64,000 bases of DNA, taken from positions 13,751,871-13,815,870 of the forward strand of contig OW804096.1 of assembly GCA_942159475.1 (NCBI GenBank), read 5' to 3'. Positions within the stretch are counted from its first letter, which is position 1. Every line of letters starts with the position of its first letter. The notes beneath the pieces are model-generated. The model was not told the origin of the DNA. It saw nothing but the letters and a program-made list of their open reading frames with translations, and did no database searches. Of the stretch, positions 25,700 to 50,488 are shown piece after piece. This stretch comes from Sthenelais limicola (Eukaryota > Annelida > Polychaeta > Phyllodocida > Sigalionidae). The position numbers and the translations under genes are program-made.

Positions 25700-26400
25700 A
25701 ATTTCATGATTTGTATAGTTGCTCTTACGCTAATTAGCGGTTATGTCGCTTTCTATCTTCACAATATAGGCACAATTTTCAAGATGTATTAATCTGTAAA
25801 CGGGTAAGAATGGTAGAAGTAAGTAAATGATGCATATACCTTGTCAATCGTATCTATGGCCGGTAATAGACCGTAATTTGGCGAATTGCTCTGTGTCACT
25901 GTCCTGTGCTCCTTGAGGTAATATTTTCGAATGATGGGTGGTGTGGGTTTTTTTTTAAGCTTGCTTAAATGTTTGCCCCTAACGACGGGACCGTAGGTTG
26001 GCTATGTCTACGTGTCTATGACAGTTGCAAGCAAGCAAGCTTTCTTGTGATAAGCTTCAGGTCTATGGGGGTGGGTTCTGCTTTGAGGTGTTGACGCCTC
26101 GCCAGCGAGTGTGTCTCCTCCTGACGCTTATCGCGATTAGTGTCAGTAGCTTCTCTCACCCTTTATTGTTTGTGGGTTGGCCTGTCTGGTGACAGCTTGG
26201 GTTCTTAGGATTATGACAATGGGAATTGAGCTTTACTTCGGATAATGACCCTTATTGGCAATTGCGTGTCTATACCGGTTAGATTGATGTCAGTCTGCAT
26301 TAAAATGAACGATAATTGTTAATTGGAATGTTTATCTGGGGCTTGGCCGTTTGGATTCGCAGTCCTTTGTTGAATGTACCATATGTTTCATGCGCTAGAC
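25700..26400 (-). other. Spacer between pol and env
   Basis: About 700 bp with no long open frame. It is larger than the short gap or overlap usual between pol and env in errantiviruses, so it may hold the env splice acceptor or promoter sequence. It contains a GCAAGCAAGC direct repeat near 26030. Confidence 0.5.
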
Positions 26401-30304: not shown

Positions 30305-30755
30305 TTTTTTTTTTTTTTTTTCCCAACGCCGGGTATTTATTCAGTCTTTCAACAAATCTTAGCTTCGGGGCCGATAACACTTATTTTCTACATCAAGCCC
30401 TCTTCGTCTCTGCTTCTGTGTCGTACATAAGGATTTTTAAAAAGAAGATCACCGACCTGACTTTGCTTGTAATACTGATTATTATATTTTCTAACATGTT
30501 GCGTATAGTTCGTAGCACCCGTGGATGTATTTACATGTTTTGACCAGATCATGAGTTATGTCATTGACTAGCACCTCGTATATTATTTCTAACATAGCAT
30601 TGTATTACATCGCTGAACATTTGTTGTGTAATAAAGTATGACATGTGTATCAAGTTTTCATCGTTTATCGATCAGCCACGACTAGTTTTAGGAGAGACTA
30701 CTATGGTTGAAATTTTTTATACCTCTGTCACACACCTACTTCTAATTTTAACGAC
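30305..30755 (-). other. LINE 3' UTR and poly-A tail
   Basis: About 430 bp after the ORF2 stop, ending in a T-run (30300-30321 on the plus strand) that is the poly-A tail. Nothing else was recognised. Confidence 0.75.
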
Positions 30756-31814
30756 TTATAGTTCGTTATAAAACTTCTCCCATCTTGCCCACTCTCTCTT
30801 GTGGGTGGCGTTTGTAAAGGAGCCGTCATACATAATTCTCAACTTAAACTTTAGCTCTCTGAGAAATTCAAAAAAGCATAACCGATTCTTTTTAAATATT
30901 TTACACTTGTAAATATAGAATCTGGCCAAGAGTAAGACGAAATTCCATGTACAATATTTCTCCTCTATATTGGGAACTCCAAATAACATAAAGATAACGT
31001 TCATATCGTCTGTGATTTCACTGTCCAAATGTTTGCTCCTTTTGGCCCAATTTATCAAATGGTGCCAAAATGAGCAAGCATTTTCACAATCTATAAAAAA
31101 GTGAAACAAGTCATCCACAGAATCGCAATAGCTACATAGATTATTTGGCTTGAGATCCATATCACTCAAATGCACATTACAAATAATCAATCTGTTTAAC
31201 ACCTGATACTGAAATGATTGTAAACGCACATTTCTAGTGCAATTGAACGGTACGCAGTACCAAATCGAGAATTCAATATTTGATATATCTATGTTCTTAT
31301 TTAAAAACATGTTTGCCCACTCGACATTCCTGTCTCCCTTTGGGTTAATGAATACTCTAACGGCGTGATAAATATCACCCGTAGCTGCAGAGAGAATATC
31401 AACGTCTACTGTACCTATTTGACAGATTAGTTCTTCTCTATAATTTTGCACTTCTTCCTCAGCAATTGTCTTGAGCCACCTTGCTGGTATTTTCTTACTC
31501 AAACTAAGTTCTTCTAAGTAATTGATGGTAATGCCAAACTCGCATTTTATTTCGTTCTTATTTTTTACTCTATTGTTTGTGACTAGATCTTCTATCTTGT
31601 GAATCTCTTTTCTTTTCCACAAGTGGACTCTGCACAGGGCGTCCTCAAGCTTTATCCATCTGTTGTTCCAGATGCACTCACATAGGATGCTTTTCTTACT
31701 GCGTGGCTCTTGTGAGCTATAAAAACGATTCCAAGTTTTAAAGATTTCTGTATAGAATTCTGAGAAATCACCACTAATTTGGTTCCTGAACCGCATTAAT
31801 TTTTTGAGATCATA
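30756..31814 (-). CDS. LINE ORF2, C-terminal part
   Basis: The last 352 codons of ORF2, separated from the rest by the CACTA insertion. Removing the CACTA element and one ATA rejoins the two parts in frame. It contains a C-x2-C ... H ... C motif (CSYC at the start, then HFFIDC) like the RVT zinc motif found near the C-terminus of L1-type ORF2 proteins, thought to bind nucleic acid. The frame stays open to a stop at 30756. Codons upstream of 31815 in the same frame are CACTA sequence and not part of this protein. Confidence 0.85.
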   Translation of the reverse strand, partial: YDLKKLMRFRNQISGDFSEFYTEIFKTWNRFYSSQEPRSKKSILCECIWNNRWIKLEDALCRVHLWKRKEIHKIEDLVTNNRVKNKNEIKCEFGITINYLEELSLSKKIPARWLKTIAEEEVQNYREELICQIGTVDVDILSAATGDIYHAVRVFINPKGDRNVEWANMFLNKNIDISNIEFSIWYCVPFNCTRNVRLQSFQYQVLNRLIICNVHLSDMDLKPNNLCSYCDSVDDLFHFFIDCENACSFWHHLINWAKRSKHLDSEITDDMNVIFMLFGVPNIEEKYCTWNFVLLLARFYIYKCKIFKKNRLCFFEFLRELKFKLRIMYDGSFTNATHKREWARWEKFYNEL

Positions 31815-31851
31815 CACTGGAAAAAAAAACGCGTTTACACGGTGAGTATCT
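31815..31851 (+). repeat. CACTA left terminal inverted repeat
   Basis: 37 bp identical to the reverse complement of 42945-42981. It includes a run of nine A and ends GTGAGTATCT. Confidence 0.95.
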
Positions 31852-32066
31852 CCACTAGTGAGTATCTCCGTGTATCCGCACTGGTGAGTATACCCGTGTA
31901 TCTGCAGTGGGAGTATACCCGTGTATCTGCAGTGGGAGTAAATCCGTGTATCTGCAGTGGGTGTATACCCGTGTATCTGCAGTGGGAGGATCCCTGTGTA
32001 TCCCCGATCCATGCATATCGTCAATGCAGTGGTGTGTGCGTATATCTTTAGATATACGCACACACA
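31852..32066. repeat. CACTA left subterminal repeats and hairpin
   Basis: Five or more copies of a roughly 25-28 bp motif built on GTGTATCTGCAGTGGGAGTA, a likely transposase-binding array. It ends in a near-perfect hairpin at about 32034-32065 (TGTGTGCGTATATCT and its complement around a 2-base loop). Confidence 0.8.
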
Positions 32067-32720
32067 GAGATAAGGTGGGGGGAGATCTTTGCTTTCAATA
32101 TGCTACTTCTCATACATTTATAAAACAATGAGTTTACCAATATATAGACTAGATGTTATAGCACTAGTAGGGGCTCGAAGGCAGGACAAAAGTACCGATT
32201 TTTAAAGCTTGTCAAGGTTTTTCAAAGAGGTGTAAATGTCACGATATGCTACGGAATTTTTGTAAATTGTATGCATCGCAAAACATCACATAACAGAAAC
32301 GTTCTTTTAGCTATAAGGTATTCGTGTACACCACAAACACCGCACAACTGGCAGCATCATGGACAAATTTTATTTATCTGGATTCGTTAAGATCTTGTCA
32401 CGATCCATAATGCCATTATATAAGCTATACTAGCTCTACCTTCACAATATATCTGGAGAATATTAGTTGTATCAATCTCGCAAGACTGCAGTCATTTTCC
32501 TGAGATGATAATCTGCTTGCCAGAGCAAGTTTCTTCTATTCCATTCTATTCTATCGATATTAAAACAGAGCTCACACAAAACACATTTTCATGTACACAC
32601 ATACTTTTTATTATTTCTCAAAATAACCCATCTGAAATACCTTTTTGATTTATAGATTATAGCATCACGCTCATCACTTATTTCAATCTTTATTTGATAC
32701 CACAGACTTGGAATGTCAGT
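32067..32720. other. CACTA left non-coding region, polyadenylation signals
   Basis: 3' flank of the minus-strand gene. Minus-strand AATAAA signals lie at 32689-32694, about 27 bp past the stop, and at 32617-32622. Confidence 0.55.
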
Positions 32721-35397
32721 TTATTGGAAACTTTTCTTCACTGCCCATTTCACGGGGGACATCGGAGAAGCACGTTCTGACATCTTTCTAGGGTCCCTAA
32801 TAAGCATTACCGCTTTTCGTTTCTGCCTGGCAGTCATACACTTGATAAATTCGGCATCTAACTTTTGTTTAGTAGTAGTGAGCGCCGGAGTCTCCCATGG
32901 GAGGCGCTTGACCACCCTTGTATGGCCAGATGCAGCCCCAGTTTCCCCTTCTGCCATTTCCTCCTCACTTGACATATAATCGGTCTTGAGTATGCGTTGT
33001 ATTTGCTCTTTTTCTCCCTCAGGCAGCTGCATTTCTTTCAGGGCCACTGTCCTGCGCTTCAGCTTCTGTGTGAGAAAGAAAAGTGTGTCAATGTAGGTAC
33101 ATGTAGACAGTTGGATATTTTTGCATTGGCAATTAGGCAAACTGTTGAAAAAACAGATGTATACATGCAACCCGACCAAAAGAGCGCTGCCCCTTAGCTG
33201 ACTTTGTCTCTCAGAACAAAACTAACACAAAGACATATTAAATGTTTTAACCAGTTGTTAAGTTGTATGCCTCTATTAACGATGGTGTTGGATAGTATGT
33301 AACTCAAGTTTCACTAGAAATGCTATGAATGTAAAAGCTAGGAAAAACAGCTACACATAATTATAGATATACATAATACCTTACCCTCGTTCTGTAGTGG
33401 TTCCACTTCACACGAAGTCTATGCATCTCCTTTGTCCCTTGATTTATCTTAAATTGGCGGTCTTTGATTGTCTTGTGATAAGATCGACAGGCCTCTGAAA
33501 ATGAAAGAAATGTCCTATATTACTATTTATGCATGAATTCTACATATCACTGTAATGTAACTTGATTTACATTGGTAGTGGTGGTATTGATGGCATCTGG
33601 GGTTGAAAAATTAGAAAAATCCATTAATGCCCGTTTTTCACAGCTTTCTGATGTAAAACCAATGGGGCTCAGTTTGCTTTACTAGAGTGTGTATTCACAC
33701 CCCACCGCAGTGATGTGGTGGGTGATTTACTGTAGGCTAGGCTTGCTTAGCTGTTACATAACATTTAAGTGTTAGTTGGTGTTCCACTGAGAGTTTCTGT
33801 GAAAAACGGGTAGGCCTATGTTGTTAAAAGAAAAACGTTTAACTAATTGGTAAAGACTTCTGACACATACAAGGGCTAAAGTATTATAGAAAGAGCAAAG
33901 ATGACCCCCGCTGCATTGGACCATTGGACCGTGTCTAGTTCTATGCTCACACCTACCAGTGGCGCATGCTGCAGATAATATCACAAGTCGCTTAACCTGT
34001 CCAAACAAAGGTTACTAATCACGCTTGCCGTGTTAGGTGGCGTCAGCCTCACTAAATGGTACCGCTTACAAACCTCACACTGGTTTAATTTATTCGGTTG
34101 GAAGCTATAATATTGTAGATCGTTTCAGAATATTCCTCTGAATGCAACACCATTTTAAACCTTTACATATGACCTTAAAAGGTATGTGGCAGAGTGTGCC
34201 CTCTCTCTCAGCGATAATAATTATAATGTCAGGAGCTAAACGAATTACTAAATAAACAACCAGCTGATGTTTCTCATCTTTACAACCCATGCATGCGCTG
34301 TTTTAGATAATCCAACATAATTATAATTGAAAGGAATACTGAGGTTGATGATCATGTGCCGACTTCGATTCCCGCCTCGATCACGCACTTAATCTTACTG
34401 ATAGGTGAACAGGAATTAAATGGCTGCATTCTCCCTAATCTGAGCTTCATTTTGATAGTAGGCACTTCATATTTAAATCAACTTGAAACAGGGATGCTTA
34501 GTATTTTGTGAGTATGGGTTCCTAGAGCTTCGATGATTTACTAGAGGGTATGTGTGTGGTATGGGATTGGTATATATATCAAGTGTTCCTCTACTAGTAC
34601 TTCTACATCTCAATTACCCTCTCAGAATAATGCACATTGACAGTCAGGGATGTAGTATGGTTACATCCATGCATTGCGATTCAACATAATACACAGCAAC
34701 AAAGTAATTATCACCATAACAATGGAAATTAGATTGTTTACCTTTTATGTGCTCAGGGCGGGTAATCTGCCCATAGGTCTCGATGTAGACCTTCAGGAGG
34801 TCTATATAGACCCTTTCGTTGTGAGATGAAGCAAATGATTCGGTGATCTCAAAACCCTTTGAGATGTCTTCCCGTGTATGCAGAGCATAGAGATTCCTTA
34901 TTCTTTTCTAGAAACAGAATGGAAATTAATTAGTCCACCTTATTGAATTAAACTATATTATAATAATTATTACTGCTACTCTCCTCTGCAGGATTATATA
35001 AATGCAAGGAGTATCAGTTACTTTGGATTAACTATAATAATACAAATGAGAATACTAATAGAATATTAACGAATAGAACCAGTATATAATATAGTATAAA
35101 TGATGTGATACATACCCTGCATTCATTTGGCACTGGATTGGTAGATTGATTTTCCTTTAATGTCTCCAGTTCCGAAAGTGTAGCCTTGTACTTTTCCTCA
35201 GTGTCCTCTTGTTTCTTTGACAAACATTTGATATCCAACTTCAGTTTTGCGTTCTCCTTTCTCAATGTGGATACTGCTGTAATCCGACCAGGATTTTCAA
35301 TATCTGAAAGTTCCCCTGAGGCCGAATCGATACTAAAATTAAAGACATCATCATCCAGCCTTGAGCTAGTCGGAGTGGAGTGTATAGGTCTATCCAT
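32721..35397 (-). CDS. CACTA second gene, 300-aa protein of unknown function
   Basis: Four exons on the minus strand: 35116-35397, 34742-34907, 33385-33494 and 32721-33065. All introns are GT-AG and every junction keeps frame, giving 903 bp and 300 residues. The N-terminal exon is acidic, then has a coiled coil of about 45 residues rich in Leu, Lys and Glu. The second and third exons contain Tyr/Lys/Arg-rich helices that could bind DNA. The last exon is basic, with a short acidic patch (SSEEEMAEGE). I do not recognise the family. By position it could play the part of TnpA, the accessory DNA-binding protein of plant CACTA elements, but that is analogy. It shares a roughly 460-bp divergent promoter region with the transposase gene. 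Confidence 0.72.
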
Positions 35398-35855
35398 GGT
35401 AGCTTCTGTTGACGAAATGATATTCTTGTGTGTTTCAAGCTAGTGAGGAAAAGGTATTAAATGGGAAATAATTCTCCAGTCAGACATTCAAATAACCTTG
35501 TCTGTTATTCCTCTTGTTTCGTTAGCACTATAATGGTGTCTCCAACCATGTCTGCCGTGTTCGTTTCCCGTGGACTTGTTATATGCATGGGGTGCAGGAT
35601 AATGTTTGAAGTAGTTTTGATTACAATTTCTAACTACAAGACTAGGAGTTTTAAACAAATTTGTTAGTTTATCAAAGTAGAAAGGTTATTGTTATACTGC
35701 TCGGAGGCTCCCAGGGAAAGATAAATATCCGAATACACAGTACCATCACATACATACCAAGATGCAAACCATTCACAATTTGCAAAACTAGTTAGACTCT
35801 GCTCTTGCCAGGACATATTCCCTCTTATTTGAAGATTTAGTTGGATGCAACTGCA
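35398..35855. promoter_or_regulatory. Divergent promoter region of the CACTA genes
   Basis: 458 bp between the two start codons, which face away from each other. No TATA box was confidently placed. The arrangement implies shared, bidirectional control. Confidence 0.5.
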
Positions 35856-38800
35856 ATGGGTAGGCACCCCAAGTACCAGTGCCCTCATTGCAAAATGCAA
35901 GTCGGAAGAATGCTCCTTATGGTGCACAAAGAAAACTTTCTGAAAGGTTGGTATTATTTTTTCGTAATATGTTATCATAATTTATTCTTTCATAATATTT
36001 CTGCATGAACAAGTATTTACATAAACAAGTGTTTACATAATGACTGGTGATTATGGTACCAATTGAAATAATTCCAAATTTAATTATTGAGTGGTACAAA
36101 CAGTGGGGATAACAATTTCCAATATTCTTATGTTGCCTCTTTTACAAGCATATATATTACATGCTTTTAATTCACGTCTTTTATTCAATATATGTATAGA
36201 TCTTTTATACTGTATGTAGCCTATTGCATAATCCCAGGCCAGATGTGCTACAATGCTTGCTGCATGTAGTGTATGTGTATGTTGTATACTTGTTTAATGT
36301 AATATGAGAAGCTACCCATTTAGCCACCTTTAACACCTCCTGATTAGGCTGGGAGGATATATTTAGGTTTGAGATGCTAGCATAGGGGGTGGGCAGGAGC
36401 GCGTTCCATCACAACTGGCTAAGGCTGTGAGCCTCCTAATTTGATATGTTCAAAGCTAAGATAAACACCTTCCAAAAGTACTGATTTGTGATCAATTAAC
36501 TCTATTTTGGTCTTTAAGAAATTGCTCCCGCCGATGTACTGAGTTAAATGAAAGTTTGTTTCTGTAGGAGGATTTCTCAATAATAAAAGTTCCATGCATC
36601 TATATCGATGAATGTCACTTATATAGGCCTTCTCAGAGTAATAATTTGGGTTCCATAATTACTCTATTAAAGATGCTTTTAACGCAAGTGATATCCTGAG
36701 TTTCCTGACAAACGTTTGTTCAGTTACATTGATAGTGGGATGCAATGGCTTACATTGTGTTGCCCCATTGGATAAGCATGTACTATTATAAACAGACATA
36801 ATTAGTTAAGGCATATCCAATTGCTGTTATGCTGGCAAATCGAATTATCCTGTCGTTTCTTGTGAAAAGTAGAAATTTTCCCAGAAACTCTTTTGGTTTA
36901 TAACCTATAGGAAAATACGAAATGATTAATACATCAACTTTAATTTTATCATACAAGGTGGGATCTGCATGCTCAACGACAAAGAAAAACGACTTGATCA
37001 GAATGATACTGGTCCGATGGAAGACTGTTGCTCTGCCCATGAGGACCATGAGGACATGGAGGTCGACAAAGAAAGTAGTTGGCTTGAAGAGGTAAGGACT
37101 TACTTAATTGGCAGTGTCATATACACATTTTGTTAACCGTTAGGCTATTGCATAGGCTATAATTGTACTCTGGATTTTGGAGATTTTTTTATTGTAAGCA
37201 GTAGAATACTTACAACTACGTTCAGTTACATTAGATCATATATGGAAGAGAGTGGGGAAGTCGCTATTTATTGCAAGGGTAGGAATATCTTTTAGTTGTT
37301 GTTTAAAGATATCAAATAAAGGTGTTGTTTGATTTTTATTTGATTGTTCACTAGCTTTTGGCCGACTGTGGTGATGTAATTTGAAAAATATTATTTTCTT
37401 GCGACTTGAGACACAGTGATGATTAACAAGCCATGGGTTGTGACAGGAAGGATAGCCTACACTATTACTGAGTATTGGTACCACAGAGCTATAGGCGCGT
37501 GGGAGTTGTCTTTTGTAAGATGGAGATGTGGCCACCCTGTCTATTGCGGTTGTTATGTAACAAGATAAACACGCATATCTTGCAGTCATGCTGGTACACA
37601 TCATATGGTACACACCACTTAAGCGGGAGTTGGCACGTCCCACCCCCACCCCTTTACCCTATCACTGAGATATATGTATAGGCCTATTCACACAACCCCA
37701 AACACTATTCCATATTACTGAAAATGTTGTCTATTGAGCACAATCCTTATTCATGACGTTTAATGCTATTTTGGGGTAATGTTATGAGCTGTTTTGTTGT
37801 GGGAAGAAGTGGTGATTAATTAGAATTAATGGTAATGTTTTACTCTATAAAAGTATATACTGTAAAAGTATTTATTTTCGCGCATATAAGTTTTCGCGCA
37901 TTAAGTATACATTGACACCTTTTCGCGCTGATTTAAATTCGCGCAGCAATGAAGTCTCACACCGTGTTTATGCAATTAATACGTTTACAGCATACTCCAT
38001 GACCTAGCTTTCTCAGCTTGAGCTGTGTATGCACACTAGGACCCAAATAGCCTGCATTGCACCTCTACCCCCTGCTTGGGGTGCTAGGGGACGAATAATT
38101 TGTCTAGGGCCCAAAGGGACCAATACCCATGACCTAGCTTTCTCAGCACGAGCCGTGTATGTAGTTGGTAGGGTCCAGACTAATTAATGGCTGTGTACAC
38201 ACTTTGGCTATTGGTCTTTTATTTCATAATACATTGGTTCTTAATCAGACTTGTAATTGCTATGTTACGGATGAAAACTTTGTGATGATATTCTTCTTGA
38301 AGAGGCACACTTGTTGTAACTACCGCATAGACATTTAGGCTCTTGAAAGTGTGTTCAACACAAATTGGAATTAGAGGGAATGTACCTATTTCTTCCACAT
38401 TCAGAATTGTTTGTGCTTGTTTGCTCCACCCTACTCAACTTGGCCATCCACCGGGGATGGATATGTGGCCACCCTGTCTATTGTGTACCATTGTACTGAG
38501 CTAGGTGCTTCAATCCCCGTGCATGCTAAGCATCGTTTGCAGAAATAATTGGTCTATATGTTTCAGTTTGTATCTCAAAAACTATCAAATATTCATTCAA
38601 AATTTTAACTGTATTACATAGCTGTACATATCCTTCCAAATCTGTGACGATTCCATTATTATAGGGCTAATTCTTCTACCCGTTTTCTTTATTGTCGCAT
38701 GGACACTTTAGGACAGTCTATTAAATATATCCTTGTGTTTCAAAGGCATATATGAGCAATTCCACCAATTAGTCGTCATTTGGTCATCCAAAATGCTTCT

Positions 38801-41800
38801 ATTGATTTTTTTTCGTTCATAAACTAGACATATTGCTGCTAATATAGACGAAATTGGGAAAGTTGATAATGAATATTGTAGTCAGGGCAGCTAGAGACTC
38901 TCTGCCCATATACATATACAAAAATATATGACATTTATTCCCGGCCGCTCACTAGTAAAATATGGACTGTGCTAAATGTGGAGCAAATGGGTGCATGAAG
39001 AAACATGTGTGTGTTTGAATTGCAGGGGTGCGACAAGGGGTTAAGGGAAAAGGGGAGAATGGGAGAAAAGGTTCTGGATCGAGTGTGAGTGTTCTAGAGG
39101 AAAAGGGTTTGTCACCCACAACATCAAGATGTATGCAAATGTTCAATATCTCAGTAGAAACGCATACAATGTACTGGTAAACTAATTAAATTGAGAATCA
39201 TATTTTAATGTACCTCTTTTCTTTTAGGGAGCAACAGGAAAGACCCAATCCAATGAGGATTCTGAGTTCAACCAACTGAACTCAGAAGAAGATGAAGAAG
39301 AGCCCATGGATGAAGTCCGTAACCATGGGTTAAGTGCGGAGGAATTAGGGGAAGTTTTGGAAATGTCGGACATTTGCAACCCCAAACACAAGGAAAATAG
39401 CAAGCATGGACGCCTTATCACCTGGATTTTGTTTTTCTTAAGTTGGTGGCAAGCAAGTTATGTTATTTCTGATTCTGCTCTAAATATTCTGCTTGCATTT
39501 TTTGGACAGATATTCCTAATTCTTGGTTCATTTGATTCTTTTGCAAAAGACCTCTCTTCTCAATTCCCAACAACTATCTACAGACTTCGAAAATGGCTAT
39601 GTCTAGATAGGCATGATTTCCAAAAATATATTGTTTGTGGAAAATGTCTAGCAATCCATCAAGAGGGTGATACGAAGACTAATGGATTGTGTTTGAAGAG
39701 GGATAATTTTGGAAAAGTATGCCGGAATCAACTGTTTCATGAGTTCATAGGGAAAGGAGGGAAAGGAATGAAAAAACCCAAACATATATATTGCTATCGT
39801 CCCCTAAGTGACAGTCTGGAACATATATTACAGAGACCAGATATAGAACAATACTGCTCCAATTGGAAAAATAGAGATGTTCCTAGCAATATGTATGCCG
39901 ACATTTATGATGGTAAAGTATGGAAAGAATTTGCTGATAAGAACAATCGCAACTTCTTTAACCAAGATGACACATATGGACTCATGATTAATGTAGACTG
40001 GTTTCAACCATTCAAAAGACGAAGTAATATTTCAATTGGGGTAATATATGTTTGCCTGCTAAATCTTCCCAGACGTTTACGATTTCAAAAGGAAAACATG
40101 ATTATTGCAGGCATTATTCCTTCACTTGAGGGTGAGCCTAAGTCCCTGACAACATTCATGCAGCCACTTGTATCAGAATTAAAAGTGCTATGGAATACTG
40201 GTGTAATTATGAAAACCTACACTAAGCCCCTGGGTACTAAAGTGCGAGGAGCGCTTATATGTGCCGCATCTGATATACCAGCAGCTAGGAAATTATGTGG
40301 CTATCTTTCTCATGCCGCAAAAAAAGGATGTTCACGTTGTAATAAGACATTCCCAGGCAACTTTGGAGAAAAACGTAATTATAGTGGTTTTGAGAGAGAC
40401 TCATGGTTGAAGAGAACACATGAACAAAATGTAAAACATTTAGATACGATCAAATCTGCCATCAACAAGACAACAAAATCGAAACTTGAGTCTCAATACG
40501 GTGTGAGGTACAGTCCTCTTTATGAATTACCCTATTACAATTCTGTTCGTTTTTGTATAATTGATCCAATGCACAACCTTTTCCTAGGCACAGCTAAGTT
40601 CATGTGGAAACTTTGGAATGAACAAGGGTTGATCACTATTAAAGAATCAAAGATTATTGACCAGCGACTGCTGAAAATAGTGGTACCCATATCTGATGGC
40701 TGGAAACCTAAGGTTATAAGTTCTAATTGGGGTGCATGGACTGCCGAAGAATGGAGGAGTTGGACTCTTGTCCATTCATTATACTGTCTTCATGATATAC
40801 TGCCTGATGAACACTTGAAATGTTGGGAATTGTTCATCAAAGCCTGTGGCTTCATAGCTAAACCTACAATAAGATCGATTGATGTTATAATTGCTGATCA
40901 GTTATTTGTAAAGTTTGGGAAACGAATTGAAACACTGTATGGACGGGAGTGCATTACACCGAATATGCATTTACATTGTCATTTAATGGACTGTATATAC
41001 GACTATGGATCAATTTATGGGTTTTGGCTATTTGCCTTCGAAAGATTTAATGGTATATTGGGTGCTTTAAATACAAATAACAAGAGCATTGAGGAGCAAT
41101 TGATGCAACATTTCCTTACGCATGAGCATCTGTATGGATTGCAACACAACTTATCGGGGGAGTATGCAGATTTTTTTTCCAAGCTTATTGGGAAAGAACA
41201 ATCAGGTCTTAGTCCACCAAGCCATGATTTTGAAGATTCGCTCTCCAACTGTGACACAATATGGAGCCTTCTGGATAATATTGTAGTTCCAATCACGCAT
41301 CAATTAAAGAAATTTGATGAGTGTGAACGCAGGCAATTACTCAAGGTATATAAAATGCTCTATAACTCAGACAATTGGACAGTGGGCGGACTATCATCAA
41401 CAGCACAAATATATAGCCAGGTAAATTATGATAATGAAGCCTATCATTCCTATGTCGCAAGCAAAAAGAGAGAACGGGGATTGATTATGGCTTGTTGGTG
41501 TCAAGAGGATGGAATGATAAATGAAGATTGTCTACGGCCAGGAATCATTAAATACTTTGTTAAACACAGTCTATTAATCAATGGAGAACTGAAGTGGCAT
41601 GTCCTCTGCTATGTTAAATGGTTTCGGCAATATTCAGGGACCAGTAGTTTCCGACCACCAATAACTGTATGGGAGTCAAAGAAATTTGTACAAGTTGGGC
41701 CAGCATCCTTTATTCCCGTGCAGAGAATATCAAGCAAGTTTGCTTATGTTCGCCATGCAGAGAATGATTCTCTACTTGTGGTACCTATGCCCAAAAGAAT

Positions 41801-41810
41801 TTGTTTATAG
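35856..41810 (+). CDS. CACTA transposase, TNP2-type
   Basis: Proposed exons 35856-35946, 36958-37091 and 39228-41810: 2808 bp, 935 residues, with GT-AG introns and matching phases at both junctions. Exon 1 encodes a short zinc-finger-like segment (CPHC at residues 9-12). Exon 2 and the start of exon 3 are acidic. The main exon has a cysteine motif CGKC then C and C about 20 and 30 residues on, and a TNP2-like catalytic core: D at about 332 (NVDWFQ), D at about 424 (SDIPA), and E at about 680 (FERFNG), probably the DDE-type triad. It should bind the element's ends, excise it and insert it. The first two exons are inferred from splice signals. The single large exon alone gives 834 residues and is certain as a frame. 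AATAAA follows at 42168-42173. Confidence 0.87.
37092..39227 (+). other. CACTA transposase intron 2
   Basis: A 2.1-kb intron from GTAAGG to TTTTAG. It contains a MITE-E copy (37858-37991) and two copies of a roughly 25-bp sequence beginning ATGACCTAGCTTTCTCAG (near 38000 and 38128). Confidence 0.6.
37858..37991. repeat. MITE-E copy inside the CACTA intron
   Basis: 134 bp from TACTGTAAAAGTATTTA to AATACGTTTACAG, with inner TTTTCGCGC/GCGCGAAA-type repeats. It is the innermost layer of the nest: MITE in CACTA in LINE in Gypsy. Confidence 0.75.
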
Positions 41811-42755
41811 ACATTGCCACACAATAGTTATTCTCCACTATATGTGCTGTATTCTCATGTATTATTTGATTTTATATTTTAACTCTTCTTTCTGATGTAA
41901 ACTGACAGCCATCCGTCTGTATCTTTTGAGGCAGACTGCAGCTCTTAACAGTTATTCATGCTTGTATATATGTAAATATGTTCCATGGTTTTTCACCAGT
42001 GATACATAGCTGAAATATTGTTTCCTCAACCAATGATGCATTTCTTGTAAAGTTGAGGAATATTACTCAACATTGTGTAACCATGCTCACATTTATCAAA
42101 TATTTGTTACAAAATGTATCTACAGTTTTACCACAATTCCGAAGTCTTAGTATTGCACACTGATCAAAATAAATATCTAATACAGTTAATACAGTTGATC
42201 TGAGTTTTGTTGTTTGCCATGCGTTAAAGAATAGAAATTATTCAAGAAAAGTTTCAACGATTTTTAAAGAACTGGTTTCATGAATGTCCATTTAGCCCGC
42301 AAACCTTATGATCCTTCTTACTAGAATGAGCTTAAGTGAATGATACATACTATACCAATAATCCCTGCCGCGCCCAGCCATGACAGTGTTTACATAGTAA
42401 TTTATCTTAAAATCGATAGCTATAGCATGCCACTAATGCTCCTTTGAAATAACCCTAAATGTTATGAAACAATTGACGTTACCAAATATAAAGTATGAGA
42501 TATTTATGCCCACATACAAAGTTTTCATGCATCATTAGTATTTTGGTACTATGACTATACTATACTATACTATACTATATAGTTCCTATATCAATACCTG
42601 AGAATGTGTTTCGATTCACCCATATAAGTTCTTTTAGAGAAGTTTCTATATAACTAATTCGGCATATAATTCATGGAATTAATGTGACTGGGTAAAAGAG
42701 ACAATTTCCCTAGCAAGTTTGCCTCCATCCCTAACTTACAGTAATTAATTGGCCA
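41811..42755. other. CACTA 3' flank of the transposase gene
   Basis: AT-rich DNA with a polyadenylation signal at 42168-42173 and a short (ACTAT)n run near 42560. No gene was seen. Confidence 0.5.
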
Positions 42756-42944
42756 ATGCGTCACTGCACTGTGTATACACGCAGATACACCACTGCACTG
42801 TGTATACACGCAGATACACGGAGCGTTATGGATAAACGCAGATACACCACTGTGTTATGGATAAACGCAGATACACAAACTCAATTGGAGATACACGCAG
42901 ATACTCACACAGCGCAGAGTGAGGATACACCAGATTTCCAACGC
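42756..42944. repeat. CACTA right subterminal repeats
   Basis: Repeated CGCAGATACAC motifs with CACTGTGTATACA spacers, in the opposite orientation to those at the left end. Confidence 0.8.
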
Positions 42945-42981
42945 AGATACTCACCGTGTAAACGCGTTTTTTTTTCCAGTG
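42945..42981 (-). repeat. CACTA right terminal inverted repeat
   Basis: 37 bp, the exact reverse complement of 31815-31851. It is followed by the ATA duplication at 42982-42984. Confidence 0.95.
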
Positions 42982-42984
42982 ATA

Positions 42985-45700
42985 TCCTATATTTTCTCGA
43001 ACAAGAGCAGACCATTTGGCTTGTGGATCCACCAACATTCTCTGAATCCATTTTAGCCTACATGTGATTAGTTTAGATCTAACGTCATGTAGTTTGAGAC
43101 CGCCTTCATCAATTTTTCTACACAAATAATGCCAGGCGACTCTGTGCTTCCCTTTTCTCCAAATAAAGTCAGCTACCATTTTTTGTATCTTACATATCAT
43201 GTGTTCTTCAATGACTATCAGGTTTGCGACATACATAAATAAGGGGATAATTAAGACATTGGCAATAACTACTCTGCCTTTTATAGATATGTCTCTCTTA
43301 CTCCAGTGGTTGACCACCACACAAGCCTTTTCAAAGGCGGTTTCAAAATTAATATTATTCTGTCGTTGCTTGTCATACGGATAGAGTAAATGAATACCGA
43401 GAATTTTCATAGAATTGACCCAGCTTATGTTCTGAGACACTTGCTGAAAGAGAACCATTTCGCCTATATTGAAGCCTTTGGTTTTACTGGTGTTGAGTAC
43501 TAAGCCGGATACATTACTAAATTCACTGATTATAGCCATCATTCTGGCCAGTGATTTTTCATCATTTGCAACTATCGTCATGTCGTCCGCGAATTGTATT
43601 ATTTTGTTATGGACACCACCAAATATTACACCTTGACATTCTGAATCAGTTCTTATCATCTCGGCTAATCTCTCGACAACAATAATGAAGAATAATGATG
43701 CTATAGGGTCTCCTTGCTTAACTCCTCTCCCAATGCTAAACCACTCGGATATGTGACCATTATTTACAATACACGATCTGGACCCTATCATGAGTCTTTT
43801 GATCCAATTCAAGAAAAAATCACCTATGTTTATATCTTTTAGACATTTAAATAAGAAATCCCAGGAGATCGAGTCATACGCCTTTTTAAAATCTAATGAC
43901 ACAAAAAGACCTTTCTTCTTATTTTTTTCAAGATGCTGTGTTATGTCTTCAAGTCTACGAACAGCACAGCCTATATATCTTCCCTTAATAAAACCATACT
44001 GGTCCTCGTTGATCGCTTTATCAATACACCCTTTTAGCCTGTTGCTAAGAGACTTAGATATTATTTTGTAGTCTGTGTTTAACAGTGTGATTGGTCTCCA
44101 GCTACCAATGAGTTTTAAATTACAGTCCTTTTTAGGGATTAGGGAGATAAAACCCTTGTACATTTCGTGCGATAGGCTATTACTCAGGTCACATTCTCTT
44201 AGTACTTCACCGAATATTGGTTCTAATACGCTCCAGAAACACTTGTAGAATTCTACCGGTATACCGTCTGGTCCAGGAGCTTTGTTGCTCGCGAATGAGT
44301 CAAGTGATTTTTTTATCTCATTTTTATCAAAACCTCTATTAAGTATCTCATTATCCATTGAATCAAAGGTAAAACCATCGTGTTCGGCCAAGAATGAGTT
44401 ATGTTCAGGTGCGCTCATTTCTTTTTCATGATATAAATTTTGATAGAATTCTTTCTTTTTCTTTAAGATTTCGCTAGATTCGGTGATGTCAACACCGTCA
44501 ACTTCTAACTGTGAAATCACTTTTTTCTTGAAATTTCTTTTTTCTAAATTTAAAAAGTAGGCTGTGGGTTTCTCACCCTCTACTAGCCATTGCGCTCTGC
44601 TACGCGCCATCGCACCCTGAGCTTTTATAATCTGTTCTAGACGCAATTCGTCTTGTAGATTCTCTATCTCTTGACTTTCGGTCTGGTTTAATACACCCTT
44701 TTGGAATAATACTCTTATTCTTTCTCTGTACTCTTTTTCGACCTTCCTTTTCTCTCTATTTTTCTGTTTTGTATAACTGATGGTTTCGACTCGAATTACA
44801 AATTTTATATAATCCCATTTGGCTTTGATACATCCTAAGCCTTCCATTTCATATGCTTCAATTATTTTTTCTTTCATCATAGATACATACTCCTCGTTAT
44901 TCAGTAAATATTTATTAAACTTCCACATACCAGGGCCTCTGGCCTGTTCATTAGATTTAATAGAGAAGGAAACTAACGAGTGATCTGAATGCTCACATAA
45001 AACATTATCAACACACTTAACCTCAGGTCTGAGCGTGGAATCAATCATACAATAATCCAATCTAGATTTTTGAGAGAGAGAGTTTCTCCCCCAAGTGTTT
45101 ATATTTGCCGTACGCGGCAGCATCTCTTTAATAATATCGCATAATTCGAAATCATGCATTATTTTTATCATATCTCTGAGTCCTACATGTCTTGCATGCT
45201 GGCTGTCACTCAAGCTTAAAAATTCTTCTTCTGGCATAATATCCAGATTAAAGTCACCCATGACAATTAACGATCTTTCTGTTTTACCATTCATTATTCC
45301 TCTTAGAGAGGTACACATTTCAGCTTGCTCCTTATAAGCATCTTTTGTTGGAAAATACACTGAGAATATTGATAGCTCTTTTTGTTCTAACGTTAAGTCC
45401 ACAAATGCGATTCTACCTAGATCGTCGCCTCCTTTATGCTTAATTTCTACATTCAGATCTTTAGATATTAAGATAGCAACTCCCCTTGCATTTCTTTTGC
45501 CGTGGACAAAATGGGCAGTACCCTGCCATTGGTTTCTCCATATTTTGATATCACTATTTACACTGTGTGTTTCCTGTAGTGCGAATATGGCTCTTTTCTT
45601 CTTGTTTAAAAATCTAAATAATGCCTGCCTTTCTTTTTTTTAGACCAGCCAATCCATTTACATTTAAGGTGTAGAAGTTTATATTATTCTCTTCAATCAT
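42985..45700 (-). CDS. LINE ORF2, endonuclease and reverse transcriptase part (frameshifted near its start)
   Basis: The ATG at 45698-45700 begins an AP-type endonuclease (LNVNGL, then LQETH, then GDFN, then SRLDY, then SDHS). A reverse transcriptase follows, with GPDG, FADD (the catalytic box) and the other usual RT blocks. The enzyme nicks target DNA and copies the LINE RNA from the nick. With the C-terminal part the full protein would be about 1257 residues, typical for ORF2. One defect is visible: an A8 run (45634-45641) where A7 keeps frame, so reading stops a few codons later. It may be a real mutation or a sequencing slip. The ATG overlaps the stop of the small frame upstream (ATGA). 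The rest is open to the CACTA junction. Confidence 0.88.
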
Positions 45701-45909
45701 TTTGGATTTTGGGGACGCAGCTCACCTTCCAAGATTTCTGTCTTATAATTATATCGGAACACTTTACAATATATTTTCGCATCGTATAAGCTAGCAGTAC
45801 ATGTTAGGTGTATATCATCAACTCTCATTTTCATAACATCTATGTTGACGAGTGTATTACAGACACTTGTTTTAGCGTCGACCCGTTTTACAATTGTTAT
45901 AGAATACAT
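45697..45909 (-). CDS. Small open frame between LINE ORF1 and ORF2
   Basis: 70 codons from an ATG at 45907-45909. Its TGA stop overlaps the ORF2 ATG by four bases (ATGA), which would suit termination-reinitiation. No family is recognised. It is basic overall with several Cys, and ends ELRPQNPK. It could be chance, but the exact overlap and the tight spacing from the ORF1 stop (about 55 bp) make it worth listing. Confidence 0.35.
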   Translation of the reverse strand: MYSITIVKRVDAKTSVCNTLVNIDVMKMRVDDIHLTCTASLYDAKIYCKVFRYNYKTEILEGELRPQNPK

Positions 45910-45965
45910 TTTGTTATGATAATTTTTTAAAAAAGGGTCACCACTAATACACAAATTAAATCTGT

Positions 45966-47378
45966 CTATGATCTGCTTGCAGCAACCTCCATCTTGTCGC
46001 TCTCATCATCATCTCTATCTTCCGCTTTCTCTTCTGCTGCCTTGGCTATAATCCTCTCCCTGACCCTCATCCAAGAGAGGCCCAAGAGATTTCCTTTCTT
46101 GTTCCATTTCTCTTGCACCAATACGTCGGGGTGGTATAGTCCCATCCCTATACCCCACTTGGAGATGTTAGGGGACGCTTCCCCTATGGTCTTGTCTCCT
46201 GTTGCCAGCAGGTAATTAGCAACCGACTCGTTGTATTTGACCTTTCTTTTCAAGCCTCTCATTAGAGTAGCTTCAAGGTTGTCGTCCCATTGGTCCCATA
46301 CTTCATCCGTCACATAGGAGTCCAGAGCGACTTTGCATCGTACTGGGTCTTCCAGCGTCAGTATGAATTCAGCTTTCTGCATATCTTGATCCATTACAGC
46401 CTTAGAATGAGCAAGGTATTGTTCAATGCAAAAAAACCATCTTTTGTCTACCTTGAATTTCGCTTCATAATGATTTGACAGGGGGCATTCCCTGGTAAAA
46501 AACACAAACGTATGTTCGTCTTCTTTTTTGGCGAGGAATCCAGGTGTGAACTGCTTCGGAAGCATTTCTAGTTGGTCAAACTTATAACGTCTCTGGCCTA
46601 GTATAACATCGCCATATGCGTTGACGACGACAGGGTATCTTTGCGACGCTCTTGCTGCCGCCACGCATGGCCTTGCTCTGGTAATCCTCTTTCTTACCTT
46701 GTCTGGTAAATCTTTCCTTAGCCAGTAAAGCCTCTTGGTGTTTTCATCGACTTTTTTACCAAGATTATCCCTTTTACCCCACACATCCTTCATATCTGTT
46801 ACATTCTCAAACACGATCAAGACAGGTGCTGCCTTACCTCTTCCAAGCCTCATAGTCGAGTACTGTACTGCTTTAGAAACTCCCATGTGTTCCTCCAGTA
46901 CCACTGCAACTGTATTTCCAAGGATTTGATCATCCTCATTGTCCTCCTTTTTAACTCCATCCAAGATCAGGTTCAGCTCTTTATCCTTTATCTGTTGCCT
47001 TAGCTGCTCCTCCTCATCCCCGATCGTGGCCATGTCTATGGCGACTAGTTTCGGGTCGTTCTTTTTCACCATGTTGATCCTGATGAGCTCTAATTCCTCA
47101 CGTTGTTTCTTCAATTCTTCCTCCATAATATCTGCCCTCTTATCTCTATCAAAGTTTTCGCCTTCTATCACACCGAGTGCGGTTTTGATTTCGCCTACGT
47201 CCTTTTTAGTGTCAGCTGCGGCGTCACTTATTTGAGTTTTTAACGCATCAAACATTGTTTTGATTTCATCATTGGTTATGGCAGACATCTTGCTTACTTG
47301 CTTTTTACTAGGCTGGTTGTTCGTGCCCTCCTCTGTCCTTTTTCTCTTTGCTGAGTCCGTATCTTTTGTCGTACTCAT
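45966..47378 (-). CDS. LINE ORF1 with a C-terminal NADAR (YbiA-like) domain
   Basis: 470 residues from the ATG at 47376-47378. The N-terminus is basic and then coiled coil (about 35-110). An RRM-like region with a basic tail follows (about 130-250), the usual RNA-binding body of ORF1 proteins. Residues about 289-445 form a NADAR domain (DUF1768, the E. coli YbiA family). Seen here are LSN at 300-302, EQY at 319-321 with the conserved Glu, SKA at 325-327, LLATGD then GEAS near 390-402, WG at 408-409, and GNLLG then the MRVRE end at 429-441. The family's usual core positions are all present, so the domain looks intact. Family members act on ADP-ribose derivatives, and some remove ADP-ribose from guanine. 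Protecting the LINE's nucleic acid or RNP from ADP-ribosylation is my inference. The tail is acidic. Confidence 0.88.
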   Translation of the reverse strand: MSTTKDTDSAKRKRTEEGTNNQPSKKQVSKMSAITNDEIKTMFDALKTQISDAAADTKKDVGEIKTALGVIEGENFDRDKRADIMEEELKKQREELELIRINMVKKNDPKLVAIDMATIGDEEEQLRQQIKDKELNLILDGVKKEDNEDDQILGNTVAVVLEEHMGVSKAVQYSTMRLGRGKAAPVLIVFENVTDMKDVWGKRDNLGKKVDENTKRLYWLRKDLPDKVRKRITRARPCVAAARASQRYPVVVNAYGDVILGQRRYKFDQLEMLPKQFTPGFLAKKEDEHTFVFFTRECPLSNHYEAKFKVDKRWFFCIEQYLAHSKAVMDQDMQKAEFILTLEDPVRCKVALDSYVTDEVWDQWDDNLEATLMRGLKRKVKYNESVANYLLATGDKTIGEASPNISKWGIGMGLYHPDVLVQEKWNKKGNLLGLSWMRVRERIIAKAAEEKAEDRDDDESDKMEVAASRS

Positions 47379-48146
47379 CAATAATATTCTTTAGCAACTG
47401 TATTCGTGCCGAAGAGTCTCAGAGTTTCTGCCGGATGTTTACACTCCAGAGCTTTCTTCCGGTTCTACTAGACCTGCGCACCTACACCCGTAGCAGAAAT
47501 AGGTCGCCTTGACCTATTTATCACCGCTACTTTTCGGTAGCCAGCCTAATCTTCACATGTAACGTACAATCAATTATGCGATGTAGCACAATAATCAGTT
47601 TTTGTATTTACTACCTTTCCATCCGTGTCAGAGTGTTATGTTTTGATTGAGCATCAGAGTTCACCGATCTAGCTGTATGATCCTTGCCGCGTGTACTCGT
47701 TGTGTACTGCGCGTGCGCGGCGGCAGTTTCAAATTCAGATTTTTGTTTAACAGATTGCCGCCTCTATTTTTTCCTACAGTCCAAACGTATGTTCCGTTTA
47801 TGCACTTTAGTATTCCTTCAACCTTCCACTGCTATTGTCTTATTTCCTTGTCAGTGTCGTCGCTCACGAATCACTTCTACAAGTTTGGCCCTGGAGATGT
47901 CCAGGAGGCAATATGGCCGCTCGTTATACCAGCGTGGTGTCCAAGCTTCCACTTTAAATCGTAGATTTTTCCGCAATTGTCTCGACTATCTTTCCAGTAT
48001 TTTGCTCTACGTACTCTCTGTAACTTTACTGAACCTTAGCGCATTTCTGTGCTATATCGGTTGGGTTTGGCTGAAATAAAAGGGGACAACAAGACCGATG
48101 TCTTTTAAACGTACCCGTTCTACTTCCCAGCTAAACCGGAAGTCCT
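47379..48146 (-). other. LINE 5' UTR / promoter region
   Basis: About 770 bp between the insertion junction and the ORF1 start. It begins AGGACTTCCGG, or GGACTTCCGG if the A belongs to the junction. It presumably holds the internal promoter. No coding signal was seen. Confidence 0.6.
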
Positions 48147-48162
48147 CATGAAGGTTATTTTT
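48147..48162. repeat. LINE target site duplication, 5' side copy
   Basis: Same 16 bp as 30289-30304, here inside the protease frame. Confidence 0.9.
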
Positions 48163-48619
48163 GCGACCTTTTTAACATGTACCACGGCACTGTCTGCCAT
48201 ATATATTTTCCAACGAACCTTTGTAATGTCAACCTGTCCTCGCTCTTTGAACTTTTCTAGTAATTTACCTCTAATGGCGGAGATTGATGCGCCAGTATCA
48301 ATAAGAGCTTGGATACCATAATTGTAAGCGAATACTTCTAAACAACCATTTTTTATAGCAGCAGTAATAGGAATTGTCTCACCTAATTCAGATTTTGGTT
48401 GTAGAACGATCCGAGCTTCCTCATCTATGGTTTTCCCAGTGTTGGTAGTAAATATGTGTTCGTGTAGATGTGATTCTTCCGCATTCACATCGTATAACAG
48501 TTTCTTTCTCAATATCGTTGGACTTTCCAGGTTGTCGTTGAAATGTTCATTTAGGGTTTGTCCCTGCCCGAGGGGACCTTGGACACGCCGAATTGGCCCT
48601 AGTGCGACGTGTGGTTGCC
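48147..48619 (-). CDS. Gypsy protease, N-terminal part of pol, broken by the LINE
   Basis: Read in the -1 frame relative to gag, from the slippery site to the LINE junction, about 155 codons. It contains the retropepsin active site DTGAS within ALIDTGAS, followed by a strand-rich region typical of aspartic proteases that cut Gag and Pol. The frame has no start ATG of its own, so it needs the frameshift. It is cut at the LINE target duplication (48147-48162) and would continue in the same frame into 26401-30304. As it stands, the frame runs eight codons into LINE DNA and stops at 48120. Confidence 0.88.
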
Positions 48620-49999
48620 GTTTCCCTGCCTCCTGCTATTCTGGAAGGCTTGGAAAGCTTGGAAATCTGCCATCATTTGATGGTCAAACTGTGGAGCTTG
48701 GTAGTATTGCTGGGGGAATTGGTTATATCCTGAGTTTTGTTGCCAATTTCCTTGGTTCTGGTTGTACTGACCATTACCGTTATTCCACCCATTGTTGTCC
48801 CAGTTGTTATTGTTGCCGTTTCCTTTGTTCTTCCAGCCGCCGCGTCCTCTGCCGTTGCCGTTCCATTTTCCTCGGCCCCGGCCGCGACCGCGTCCTCTGC
48901 CGCGTCCACCTCCTCGGTGGCCGCCGATCTCTTGGACTGTCTCTGTGGCTTCTGGCTTTGGTTTTTCCTCTTGTGCGGTCCTTACCGCTTTAATTTGTTC
49001 GCTTAATACTTTAAATTGCTCGTCTGCTAGTTTTGTTAACGCACTGCATGAGCTTGCTACTATGCTTGAAATATCTGCTGAGTCTATTAAGGCAGGTTTC
49101 TGTATGCTGGCCTCGGCTGTCTTTGCCATTATTACTGCTGCGTCGAAGGTAATTGGGGTTTGGGCTAACACTACTTTCCCAATCTCGCCCCTTAGTCCTT
49201 CTACTAATTTTTCAATGGAGGATTCCTCGTTTAATCCTCTGGCGTGGACGATATCTCTTAGTTCTGCTGAGTATGACTCCACAGATTCATCCTTTCTCTG
49301 TTTTCTCACGCCAGTTATCCTTAGTTTACGTTCATCCGCGGCAAAATGTGCAATCATGGCTCTACATGTAGCCAGGTAATCGTTTCTGTTCACATGTGCC
49401 GTTCTCACATATCTATCTAGCCATTGCTTTGCTCTCCCGTCCACGTATGTTGACAAATATCTGGGTAGCATGGCGGGATTGTTATCATATGCGAGGTTAA
49501 TATAGTGTTCATACGCATCAAGAAAAGATCTGGTCGTCACTGTACATGTTGGATGTCTAAATACCTCTGGTTTTCTCAGGTTCGGGTCCTGAGCTCTGAG
49601 TGCCACAAGTGCTTCGGCGAAATGTTCATGTCTTTGAGCCTCTGCCTGTTGTGCCTCTTCATTAGCTGGAGGCATGACGACTTGGATCCTGTGGTTCTGC
49701 GGGGGTTGAGGTGCGCCTCCATCGCCACCTTGTCCCGCTCGTGCAGCGTCTACTGCGGCTTGGACTCGTTCTCCTAAGTCCTCCTGCCGCGCCCGGTCAT
49801 GTTCTGCCAGGCGGTCTTGGATTATCTGTTCCAACTGTTCTCTGACTTCTTGCTGCATTTCCTTTTGTTTCTTGTCTTTGCGTTTCTTTGGAATATATTC
49901 CTTGATTTGGATGGTCTTGTTTCTTAAAACTTTCTGCTTATCCAGGATGTTATAGTAATGGGTTCTCCACCATTTGATATGCTTACTTGTACGGCGCAT
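48599..49999 (-). CDS. Gypsy Gag polyprotein
   Basis: 466 codons, intact. The N-terminal 60 residues are basic. A Glu/Arg/Gln-rich helical segment follows, then a retrotransposon Gag capsid-type region (about 130-330, with WLDRY and a helical body). The C-terminus is Gly/Arg/Asn/Gln-rich, with repeated RGRGRG boxes and an Asn-rich tail; there is no CCHC zinc knuckle. Gag builds the particle and packages RNA, and here the RGG part presumably replaces the zinc knuckle in RNA binding. The first ATG lies 25 bp inside the 5' LTR. The next Met is about residue 52, so the start is uncertain. The frame overlaps the protease frame at its end. Confidence 0.88.
   Translation of the reverse strand: MRRTSKHIKWWRTHYYNILDKQKVLRNKTIQIKEYIPKKRKDKKQKEMQQEVREQLEQIIQDRLAEHDRARQEDLGERVQAAVDAARAGQGGDGGAPQPPQNHRIQVVMPPANEEAQQAEAQRHEHFAEALVALRAQDPNLRKPEVFRHPTCTVTTRSFLDAYEHYINLAYDNNPAMLPRYLSTYVDGRAKQWLDRYVRTAHVNRNDYLATCRAMIAHFAADERKLRITGVRKQRKDESVESYSAELRDIVHARGLNEESSIEKLVEGLRGEIGKVVLAQTPITFDAAVIMAKTAEASIQKPALIDSADISSIVASSCSALTKLADEQFKVLSEQIKAVRTAQEEKPKPEATETVQEIGGHRGGGRGRGRGRGRGRGKWNGNGRGRGGWKNKGNGNNNNWDNNGWNNGNGQYNQNQGNWQQNSGYNQFPQQYYQAPQFDHQMMADFQAFQAFQNSRRQGNGNHTSH
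48620..48626 (-). promoter_or_regulatory. -1 ribosomal frameshift heptamer GGGAAAC
   Basis: G GGA AAC in the gag frame, six codons before the gag stop. It is the same X XXY YYZ type used by several retroviruses at gag-pro. The -1 frame from here is open through the protease. A short downstream stem (ACACG with CGTGT) is possible but weak. Confidence 0.78.
49955..49972 (-). other. Possible primer binding site
   Basis: Two bases after the 5' LTR the minus strand reads TGGTGGAGAACCCATTAC. TGG at this place is the usual start of a tRNA-complementary site. I could not match a specific tRNA. Confidence 0.4.
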
Positions 50000-50488
50000 A
50001 TCAATGTGCTAATAAGTAATCAATCCAGGAGGCAGAAGTATATTCAAAGAATATCAGAGAACTAACTTTTATTGTCTACGACATGGGTTATATATCAGCA
50101 GGGGTCCAGGTGTGCCTTATGGTTAGCCAGTGACCGTTGGGGTTACATTAGGTCACATGGTCTGTCGCCAATAGCAGGTGGTATTACATGTGGTCACGTG
50201 GACCAATGGTGGTTGAGGACCGGGCCACCATGTGGCCGGTCTGAGTATTAATTAGTGTATACTGATTAAGTAATGTGGCACACCTGGACAGGTGTAGAGG
50301 TAGCCATGCTTGACTAGACATAGCAAGATGACCTAGATTATAACTGATACATTAATATTCATATTCATGTACTGAGGTACATATTCATAATCATAATCAT
50401 GTTAATAAGGTTACACCTTATTATGCAATGTTATACAATATTACGTCATTGAATATTTAGATTAACATGCGGAAATATTGGTATGACA
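49975..50488 (-). repeat. 5' LTR of the Gypsy element
   Basis: 514 bp. It differs from the 3' LTR by two substitutions and by lacking 12 bp close to the gag ATG. An AATAAA signal lies at 50068-50073. Confidence 0.93.

Follow-up and report, generated by a model that had tools for sequence, protein, structure and literature searches.

Does a LINE of the polychaete Sthenelais limicola carry a working NADAR domain in its ORF1 protein, and what would such a domain do there? The question is raised by one open reading frame in the window analysed here, a stretch of 64,000 nucleotides (contig OW804096.1, positions 13,751,871 to 13,815,870). A sequence-only reading took the frame for a LINE ORF1 protein fused to NADAR and proposed that the retrotransposon RNP may carry an eraser of ADP-ribosylation.

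A LINE nested in an LTR retrotransposon

The frame in question, which encodes 470 aa on the minus strand from an ATG at 47378 to a stop codon whose last base is 45966, is identified as ORF1 by its position, since it lies inside an element that is bounded by a TSD and includes poly(A) and a LINE-1-like ORF2 (Table 1). The element is an L1-type LINE by its ORF2, which includes endonuclease (EN) and reverse transcriptase (RT), its TSD and its 3′ poly(A). The best PDB match of ORF2 is the LINE-1 ORF2 protein 8sxt (residues 4-776, E 6.9e-76). In Pfam, ORF2 matches RVT_1 (E 1.7e-43), and its EN matches, made on a partial frame, are below cut-off.

ORF1 is fully open in this copy. ORF2 shifts frame close to its start, and a CACTA-like transposon inside it divides it in two; other copies, L009 and L011 among them, match its main part (residues 1-811) in one unbroken stretch. 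The 16-bp TSD of the LINE is duplicated sequence of the LTR retrotransposon, the two LTRs of which show 2 substitutions over 514 ungapped columns. As the LINE entered after the LTR element and these LTRs are still nearly identical, its insertion is recent. Rfam and tRNA searches gave no match.

Table 1. Features of the LINE and of the elements nested with it (positions in the window)
Feature	Position	Strand	Remarks
Full-length LINE, 6,672 bp excluding the nested DNA transposon	30305..48146	-	16-bp TSD on both sides, A-tail, AATAAA before the 3′ TSD
TSD, 5′ copy	48147..48162	-	16-mer AAAAATAACCTTCATG, same as 3′ copy
TSD, 3′ copy	30289..30304	-	poly(A) just before; its first A's could be tail
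LINE 5′ untranslated region	47379..48146	-	stretch from TSD to ORF1 ATG
ORF1, 470 aa	45966..47378	-	N-terminal heptad pattern (weak); RNA-binding part like that of L1 (by eye); NADAR at the C-terminus
NADAR of ORF1, residues 296-443	46050..46493	-	Pfam PF08719, E 1.3e-19; coordinates from residue range
ORF2 5′ part: endonuclease and reverse transcriptase	42982..45699	-	frame change at ~45640, near start; DNA transposon cuts at 42981
ORF2 3′ part	30756..31814	-	zf-RVT match weak, below cut-off
CACTA-like DNA transposon nested in LINE, 11,167 bp	31815..42981	.	perfect 36-bp terminal inverted repeats, TSD TAT
tnp2 transposase ORF of CACTA-like transposon	39306-41810	+	
LTR retrotransposon hosting LINE	21637..50488	-	gag, protease, pol, env-like gene

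The env-like gene of the LTR retrotransposon (21637-50488) is a Baculo_F match (E 7e-8), and this element has a 4-bp TSD, TAAG. The CACTA-like transposon (31815-42981) contains 29-bp tandem units at 42762-42876. Tandem arrays are also found at 10513-11240 (52-bp unit, 14 times), 54040-55285 (26-bp unit, 48 times) and 56410-57391 (82-bp unit, 12 times, 98% match).

The NADAR domain of ORF1 and its spread in the genome

The HMM search that had been proposed as a check matches Pfam NADAR (PF08719) to residues 296-443 of ORF1 with E 1.3e-19 and 71.5 bits (cut-off 35.1). The match spans profile positions 9-162 of 163, which places the domain in the NADAR superfamily. NCBIfam TIGR02464 (ribofla_fusion) scores 79.8 bits, with a cut-off of 73.7, and a chance match was ruled out because both scores are above curated cut-offs. 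ORF1 matches a single PDB sequence up to E 1, that of the NADAR 8bau (E 1.5e-8), and a profile that includes the window sequence finds 8bau and also E. coli YbiA 2b3w. The domain makes up the C-terminal third of ORF1. The fusion read from the letters alone is therefore borne out, in an element that TSD, poly(A) and ORF2 identify as a LINE.

The rest of that reading, a coiled coil followed by an RRM-like middle, holds only in part. There is a weak heptad pattern at residues 57-105 (p 0.0035, uncorrected for 179 windows), but the best two heptad windows are at residues 190-224, outside the supposed coiled coil. Residues 1-289 have no PDB match and a best Pfam E of 5.2, which is not meaningful, and the RRM/CTD in the middle of ORF1 is a reading by eye.

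Whole ORF1 found two NADAR proteins and no LINE ORF1 in the protein database, in a search that scored the 8,000 candidates with the most shared words. The NADAR part alone found no match there, and because it missed the same two proteins, known to be findable with whole ORF1, its blank is no evidence of absence. Searches of viral contigs, genome contigs and phage DNA gave no match; a phage tblastn gave 281 records, all with <60% identity, the 12 listed being at 34-37%. Pfam found no ADP-ribosyltransferase in the large ORFs of the element that were scanned, and on this ground a two-component toxin-antitoxin of the DarTG type inside the element was ruled out.

The window lies on contig C3 of a 1.13-Gb genome, which was searched for further copies. 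With ORF1 as query, all 90 best-scored places (of 4,620 candidates, the window's own included) are significant, with 51-100% identity, and they are spread over nine contigs. The alignment reaches residue 434 or beyond, and so runs through NADAR, at 88 of the 90, and 82 have no internal stop. A query without NADAR (residues 1-289) gave 135 scored matches, the best of 2,209 candidates; 112 lie in frames of ≥430 aa, which have room for NADAR, and 23 in shorter frames, length being the only measure used. In the NADAR profile search all 150 scored places, the best of 5,561 candidates, are above the cut-off. Because each search scores its best candidates only (90/4,620, 150/5,561 and 135/2,209), the copy number is a lower bound. 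ORF2 is downstream of ORF1 in 20/20 loci fetched with flank. The NADAR-ORF1 fusion is a family trait in this genome, and the supposition that it might be general in the LINE lineage holds within it; the search for elements with the same ORF1 layout found many family copies together with a second LINE lineage, described below. The nine contigs (C1-C9, 68-162 Mb) amount to about the whole 1.13-Gb assembly, which suggests about nine chromosomes.

Selection was measured on copies from 32 distinct ORF1 places. One (L010) was dropped for an internal stop, and the 31 others were aligned with the window copy to give a set of 32 that are 52-100% identical to the window copy, several being near-identical to one another. 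Nei-Gojobori counts were made on 16 pairs and pooled over six, one per subfamily, including the pair L026-L036, which is saturated at silent sites. Pooled pN/pS is 0.07 for NADAR (residues 290-445), 0.11 for residues 116-285 and 0.15 for residues 1-115. In Fisher tests of the counted changes, NADAR differs from all other ORF1 (p = 0.0024) and from residues 1-115 (p = 0.0001), but not significantly from residues 116-285 alone (p = 0.068). The domain is under purifying selection in the compared copies and has the lowest pN/pS in ORF1. Since the fusion is also general in the family, the element appears to use its NADAR, and constraint at least equal to that of the RNA-binding part indicates that the domain matters for transposition.

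The binding pocket in two LINE lineages

Pocket residues are numbered as in the P. nicotianae NADAR 8bau (PMC11543638), the 8bau chain being offset by two. In the alignment with 8bau, equivalents of E43, K50, K75, W89, E125 and W133 are kept in 32/32 copies. These include the marks of guanine-ADP-ribose hydrolases (E43, K50 and E125), and the conserved Glu that had been pointed out earlier is thus kept along with its partner Glu, Lys and Trp residues. The E125 equivalent, E400 in the window copy, is the glutamate that classifies the YbiA subfamily (PMC11543638).

Other ligand contacts of 8bau, which do not serve to define the superfamily, are changed in every one of the 32 copies. The position of R79, the pyrophosphate-contacting arginine, is S, A or G and never basic, that of Y84 is E or D and never aromatic, and that of D130 is I, V, Q, M, T or K and never Asp. 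The G78 position has D in 23 copies, G in 8 and N in 1, and two residues that are invariant and specific to the family, H303 and W361, occur in 32/32. All 54 database relatives in the alignment, which were selected out of 120 listed among 4,003 finds, have R or K at the R79 position, F or Y at that of Y84 and Asp at that of D130, and the window copy keeps 15 of the 20 columns that are invariant among them. Judged from these alignments, the distal-ribose glutamates and the phosphate lysine appear to be preserved and the remaining ADP side to be rebuilt. As all subfamilies show the change alike and the domain is under constraint, it is not the decay of single copies.

The Asp that matches D130 by spacing is among the residues whose mutation is reported to abolish the N-glycosidase activity of YbiA, and the same position, again matched by spacing, was tested in SNA-3 (D343 with W346; PMC9303266). 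This Asp is present in 0/32 copies, although TIGR02464 passes its cut-off, and because an equivalent that is critical in YbiA is changed here, the domain may have acquired a new ligand or even an altered catalysis. We class it neither as a YbiA-type riboflavin-intermediate N-glycosidase nor as a guanine-ADP-ribose hydrolase. E. coli YbiA, which is active on guanine-ADPr (PMC11125620), also has no aromatic residue at the Y84 position, as read from the alignment. In the E. coli C7 NADAR, changes of E88, K95 and D171, which match E43, K50 and E125, abolish or impair hydrolysis or rescue, the effect of E88A in vitro being slight, and K-to-R at the K50-matching position leaves hydrolysis in vitro intact and abolishes rescue (PMC11543638).

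Many of the top NADAR scores in the genome fall in frames of about 560-830 aa. At five such loci for which downstream DNA was fetched (L041+L045, L042+L046, L065, L066 and L067), the NADAR ORF is followed by an RT ORF on the same strand, with an endonuclease match in 4/5. These RT ORFs share 25-34% identity with each other (132-324 bits), but match that of the window with 20-31% identity over shorter or weaker stretches (54-72 bits), or in the case of L066 not at all. Being far more alike mutually than they are to the window's, they represent a second, distant LINE lineage with NADAR. The best PDB match of the L046 ORF2 is 8c8j, a LINE-1 ORF2p core, at 65 bits, compared with 227 bits for the window's ORF2.

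The five loci have D, D, Q, G and T in place of R79, and D130 is kept in 4/5, with N in L041. A wider set of 22 NADAR loci is made up of these five, 16 others and L044, which is probably no LINE, and some of its members are near-identical. E43, K75, W89, E125 and W133 are kept in 22/22; the K50 position has Lys in 13 loci and Arg in 9, L044 alone has a basic residue at R79, and D130 is D in 21/22. As aligned, the ORF1 NADARs of both LINE lineages have lost the R79 contact, and D130 is lost in the window family and, outside it, in L041 alone. In a tree of 51 NADARs the window family (14 tips, support 1.0) stands apart from a second set (21 tips, 0.975), but as the tree is midpoint-rooted and its database members had been selected by similarity to the query, two separate captures of NADAR by LINEs are only hinted at.

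Possible roles of the domain and known relatives

The explanation that we put forward, tentatively, is a recently mobile L1-type LINE family with a working ORF1 NADAR that removes a ribosyl adduct from LINE RNA or cDNA, undoing a host mark or lesion. Enzyme activity of the domain is slightly more likely than not; like the substrate and the counter-defence role, it is inferred. In L1 the ORF1 protein coats the RNA. If the present ORF1 coats the LINE RNA, its NADAR would accompany the RNP and the cDNA intermediate. Within the RNP it would hydrolyse a ribosyl adduct joined to the LINE RNA or cDNA by an N-glycosidic bond, in the likeliest case ADP-ribose, or a trimmed form of it, attached to guanine, and removal of the adduct would undo a host mark or lesion that blocks reverse transcription or integration. 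A broader version, in which two distant LINE lineages keep a self-carried ORF1 NADAR eraser in very many copies as a counter-defence enzyme of the RNP with a rebuilt active site, is doubtful. If true, the site would have been rebuilt to act on retroelement nucleic acid with an adduct derived from ADP-ribose or of another N-ribosyl kind, and a host system that places ribosyl marks on the RNA or cDNA of retroelements would be implied; should the domain erase ADP-ribose from nucleic acid, the host may use nucleic-acid ADP-ribosylation against retrotransposons. The family offers a defined protein, a defined RNA and a negative control (catalytic Glu mutants).

The eraser proposed by the sequence-only reading gains from a genuine NADAR with its Glu kept and under selection, and loses from the changed R79, Y84 and D130 positions in 32/32 copies. 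Its nearest rivals are a non-catalytic reader and a role in RNA processing or on a small molecule. A reader would bind ADP-ribosylated or plain RNA, DNA or protein and direct the RNP without catalysis. The lost D130 equivalent and ligand contacts, next to an invariant H303 and W361, would suit a rebuilt binding site, but all 32 copies retain the two distal-ribose glutamates along with the essential lysine, and the Asp is kept in 21/22 other NADAR loci, and we consider a reader somewhat unlikely. Action on an N-ribosyl substrate other than base-linked ADP-ribose, or in RNA processing (the target being an NAD/ADPr RNA cap, a damaged nucleotide or a small molecule derived from NAD), need not be counter-defence and is in our view likewise somewhat unlikely. 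It would explain why the Glu/Lys/Trp end is kept and the ADP side changed in every copy, and the domain passes an NCBIfam model named for a riboflavin biosynthesis intermediates N-glycosidase. Processing of RNA intermediates is also what the authors of the Ectocarpus study suggest (PMC12477816), and the nematode NADAR protein SNA-3, which acts in trans-splicing, points to RNA processing as the role of animal NADARs and so away from defence (PMC9303266). However, the window family is without the Asp that is critical in the YbiA N-glycosidase (PMC9303266), which counts against a YbiA-like reaction too.

The changed pocket residues, taken alone, would speak for a structural spacer or a captured passenger without function, but the domain has the lowest pN/pS in ORF1, by which a functionless passenger was ruled out, and the fusion is retained across subfamilies down to 52% identity and in the second LINE lineage, making this very improbable. 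An artefact, whether a host NADAR gene interrupted by or lying beside a LINE or a join in the assembly, has a negligible likelihood: the same ORF stands at 90 scored places on nine contigs, ORF2 comes next in 20/20 loci and the TSD is intact, and an artefact or lone copy was ruled out on these counts.

The question of whether such a fusion had been reported can be answered in part. One sentence in PMC12477816, of September 2025, reports NADAR-like domains in the ORF1 of Tx1 LINEs of Crassostrea gigas, and the same paper describes Ectocarpus Gypsy elements with NADAR in Pol; its passages on NADAR propose that the domain processes RNA intermediates and claim no counter-defence. It is the one report of NADAR in a LINE found in searches of open-licence PMC full text, and in the same searches no report was found of the selection, the pocket change or the second LINE lineage. 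NADAR in LINE ORF1 is thus not wholly new, and what is added here is the selection on it, its half-kept pocket and its presence in a second lineage. Compared by description only, the C. gigas elements are likewise L1-superfamily LINEs with a YbiA-type NADAR in ORF1, but the sentence on them in PMC12477816 holds no data on selection, pocket or a second lineage. The Ectocarpus elements are alike in that a retrotransposon bears the domain.

The P. nicotianae 8bau and E. coli YbiA 2b3w share with the window family the domain by sequence and the E43, K50, E125 and W133 equivalents, and differ from it in the R79 and D130 equivalents, which are changed in the LINE, and in the ORF1 fusion. DarT1-NADAR toxin-antitoxin systems also have a NADAR domain, which there erases guanine-ADPr, but the LINE has no ADP-ribosyltransferase match in the large ORFs scanned and has Glu, not Asp, at the E125/D171 position. 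The NADARs of metazoan RNA viruses are likewise carried by an RNA-based parasite and were proposed to act against host ADP-ribosylation, but sit in a virus polyprotein and not in a LINE ORF1 (PMC9503650). SNA-3 is, similarly, an animal RNP protein in which conserved NADAR residues are needed, but it is the product of a host trans-splicing gene, has three NADAR domains and is given no retroelement link in the account of it in PMC9303266.

Guanine-ADPr is hydrolysed in vitro by four E. coli/phage NADAR types, C. crocatus YbiA and the P. nicotianae NADAR (PMC11125620, PMC11543638). YbiA and phage NADARs are active in vitro yet do not rescue cells from DarT1 (PMC11125620), so activity alone does not predict role. 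The physiological role of animal NADARs is described as unclear (PMC11125620); SNA-3 is an animal NADAR with a described role, in trans-splicing (PMC9303266). On the host side, clam CARP-1 is a guanine-directed DNA ADP-ribosyltransferase (PMC11543638). ZAP/PARP13 restricts human L1, but as its zinc-finger part is sufficient (PMC4441479), this restriction does not itself show ADP-ribosylation of L1.

Some of the other NADAR loci have further frames. In L065, L042, L043 and L067, which belong to the second set, a small extra ORF (208-315 aa) follows or overlaps the end of the NADAR ORF. It looks SGNH/GDSL-like, with DSRG near the start and H near the end, by eye in L042, L043 and L065 and by position in L067; none of the four has a Pfam match, and the L042 frame, the only one searched against PDB, found nothing convincing. 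L044 has a free-standing NADAR of 160 aa at 995-1474 (109 bits) that keeps D130 and a basic R79, and the adjoining ORF, which has no Pfam match, resembles by eye a Polinton-type DNA polymerase B. Of the 150 scored NADAR places, 3 have frames of 162 aa.
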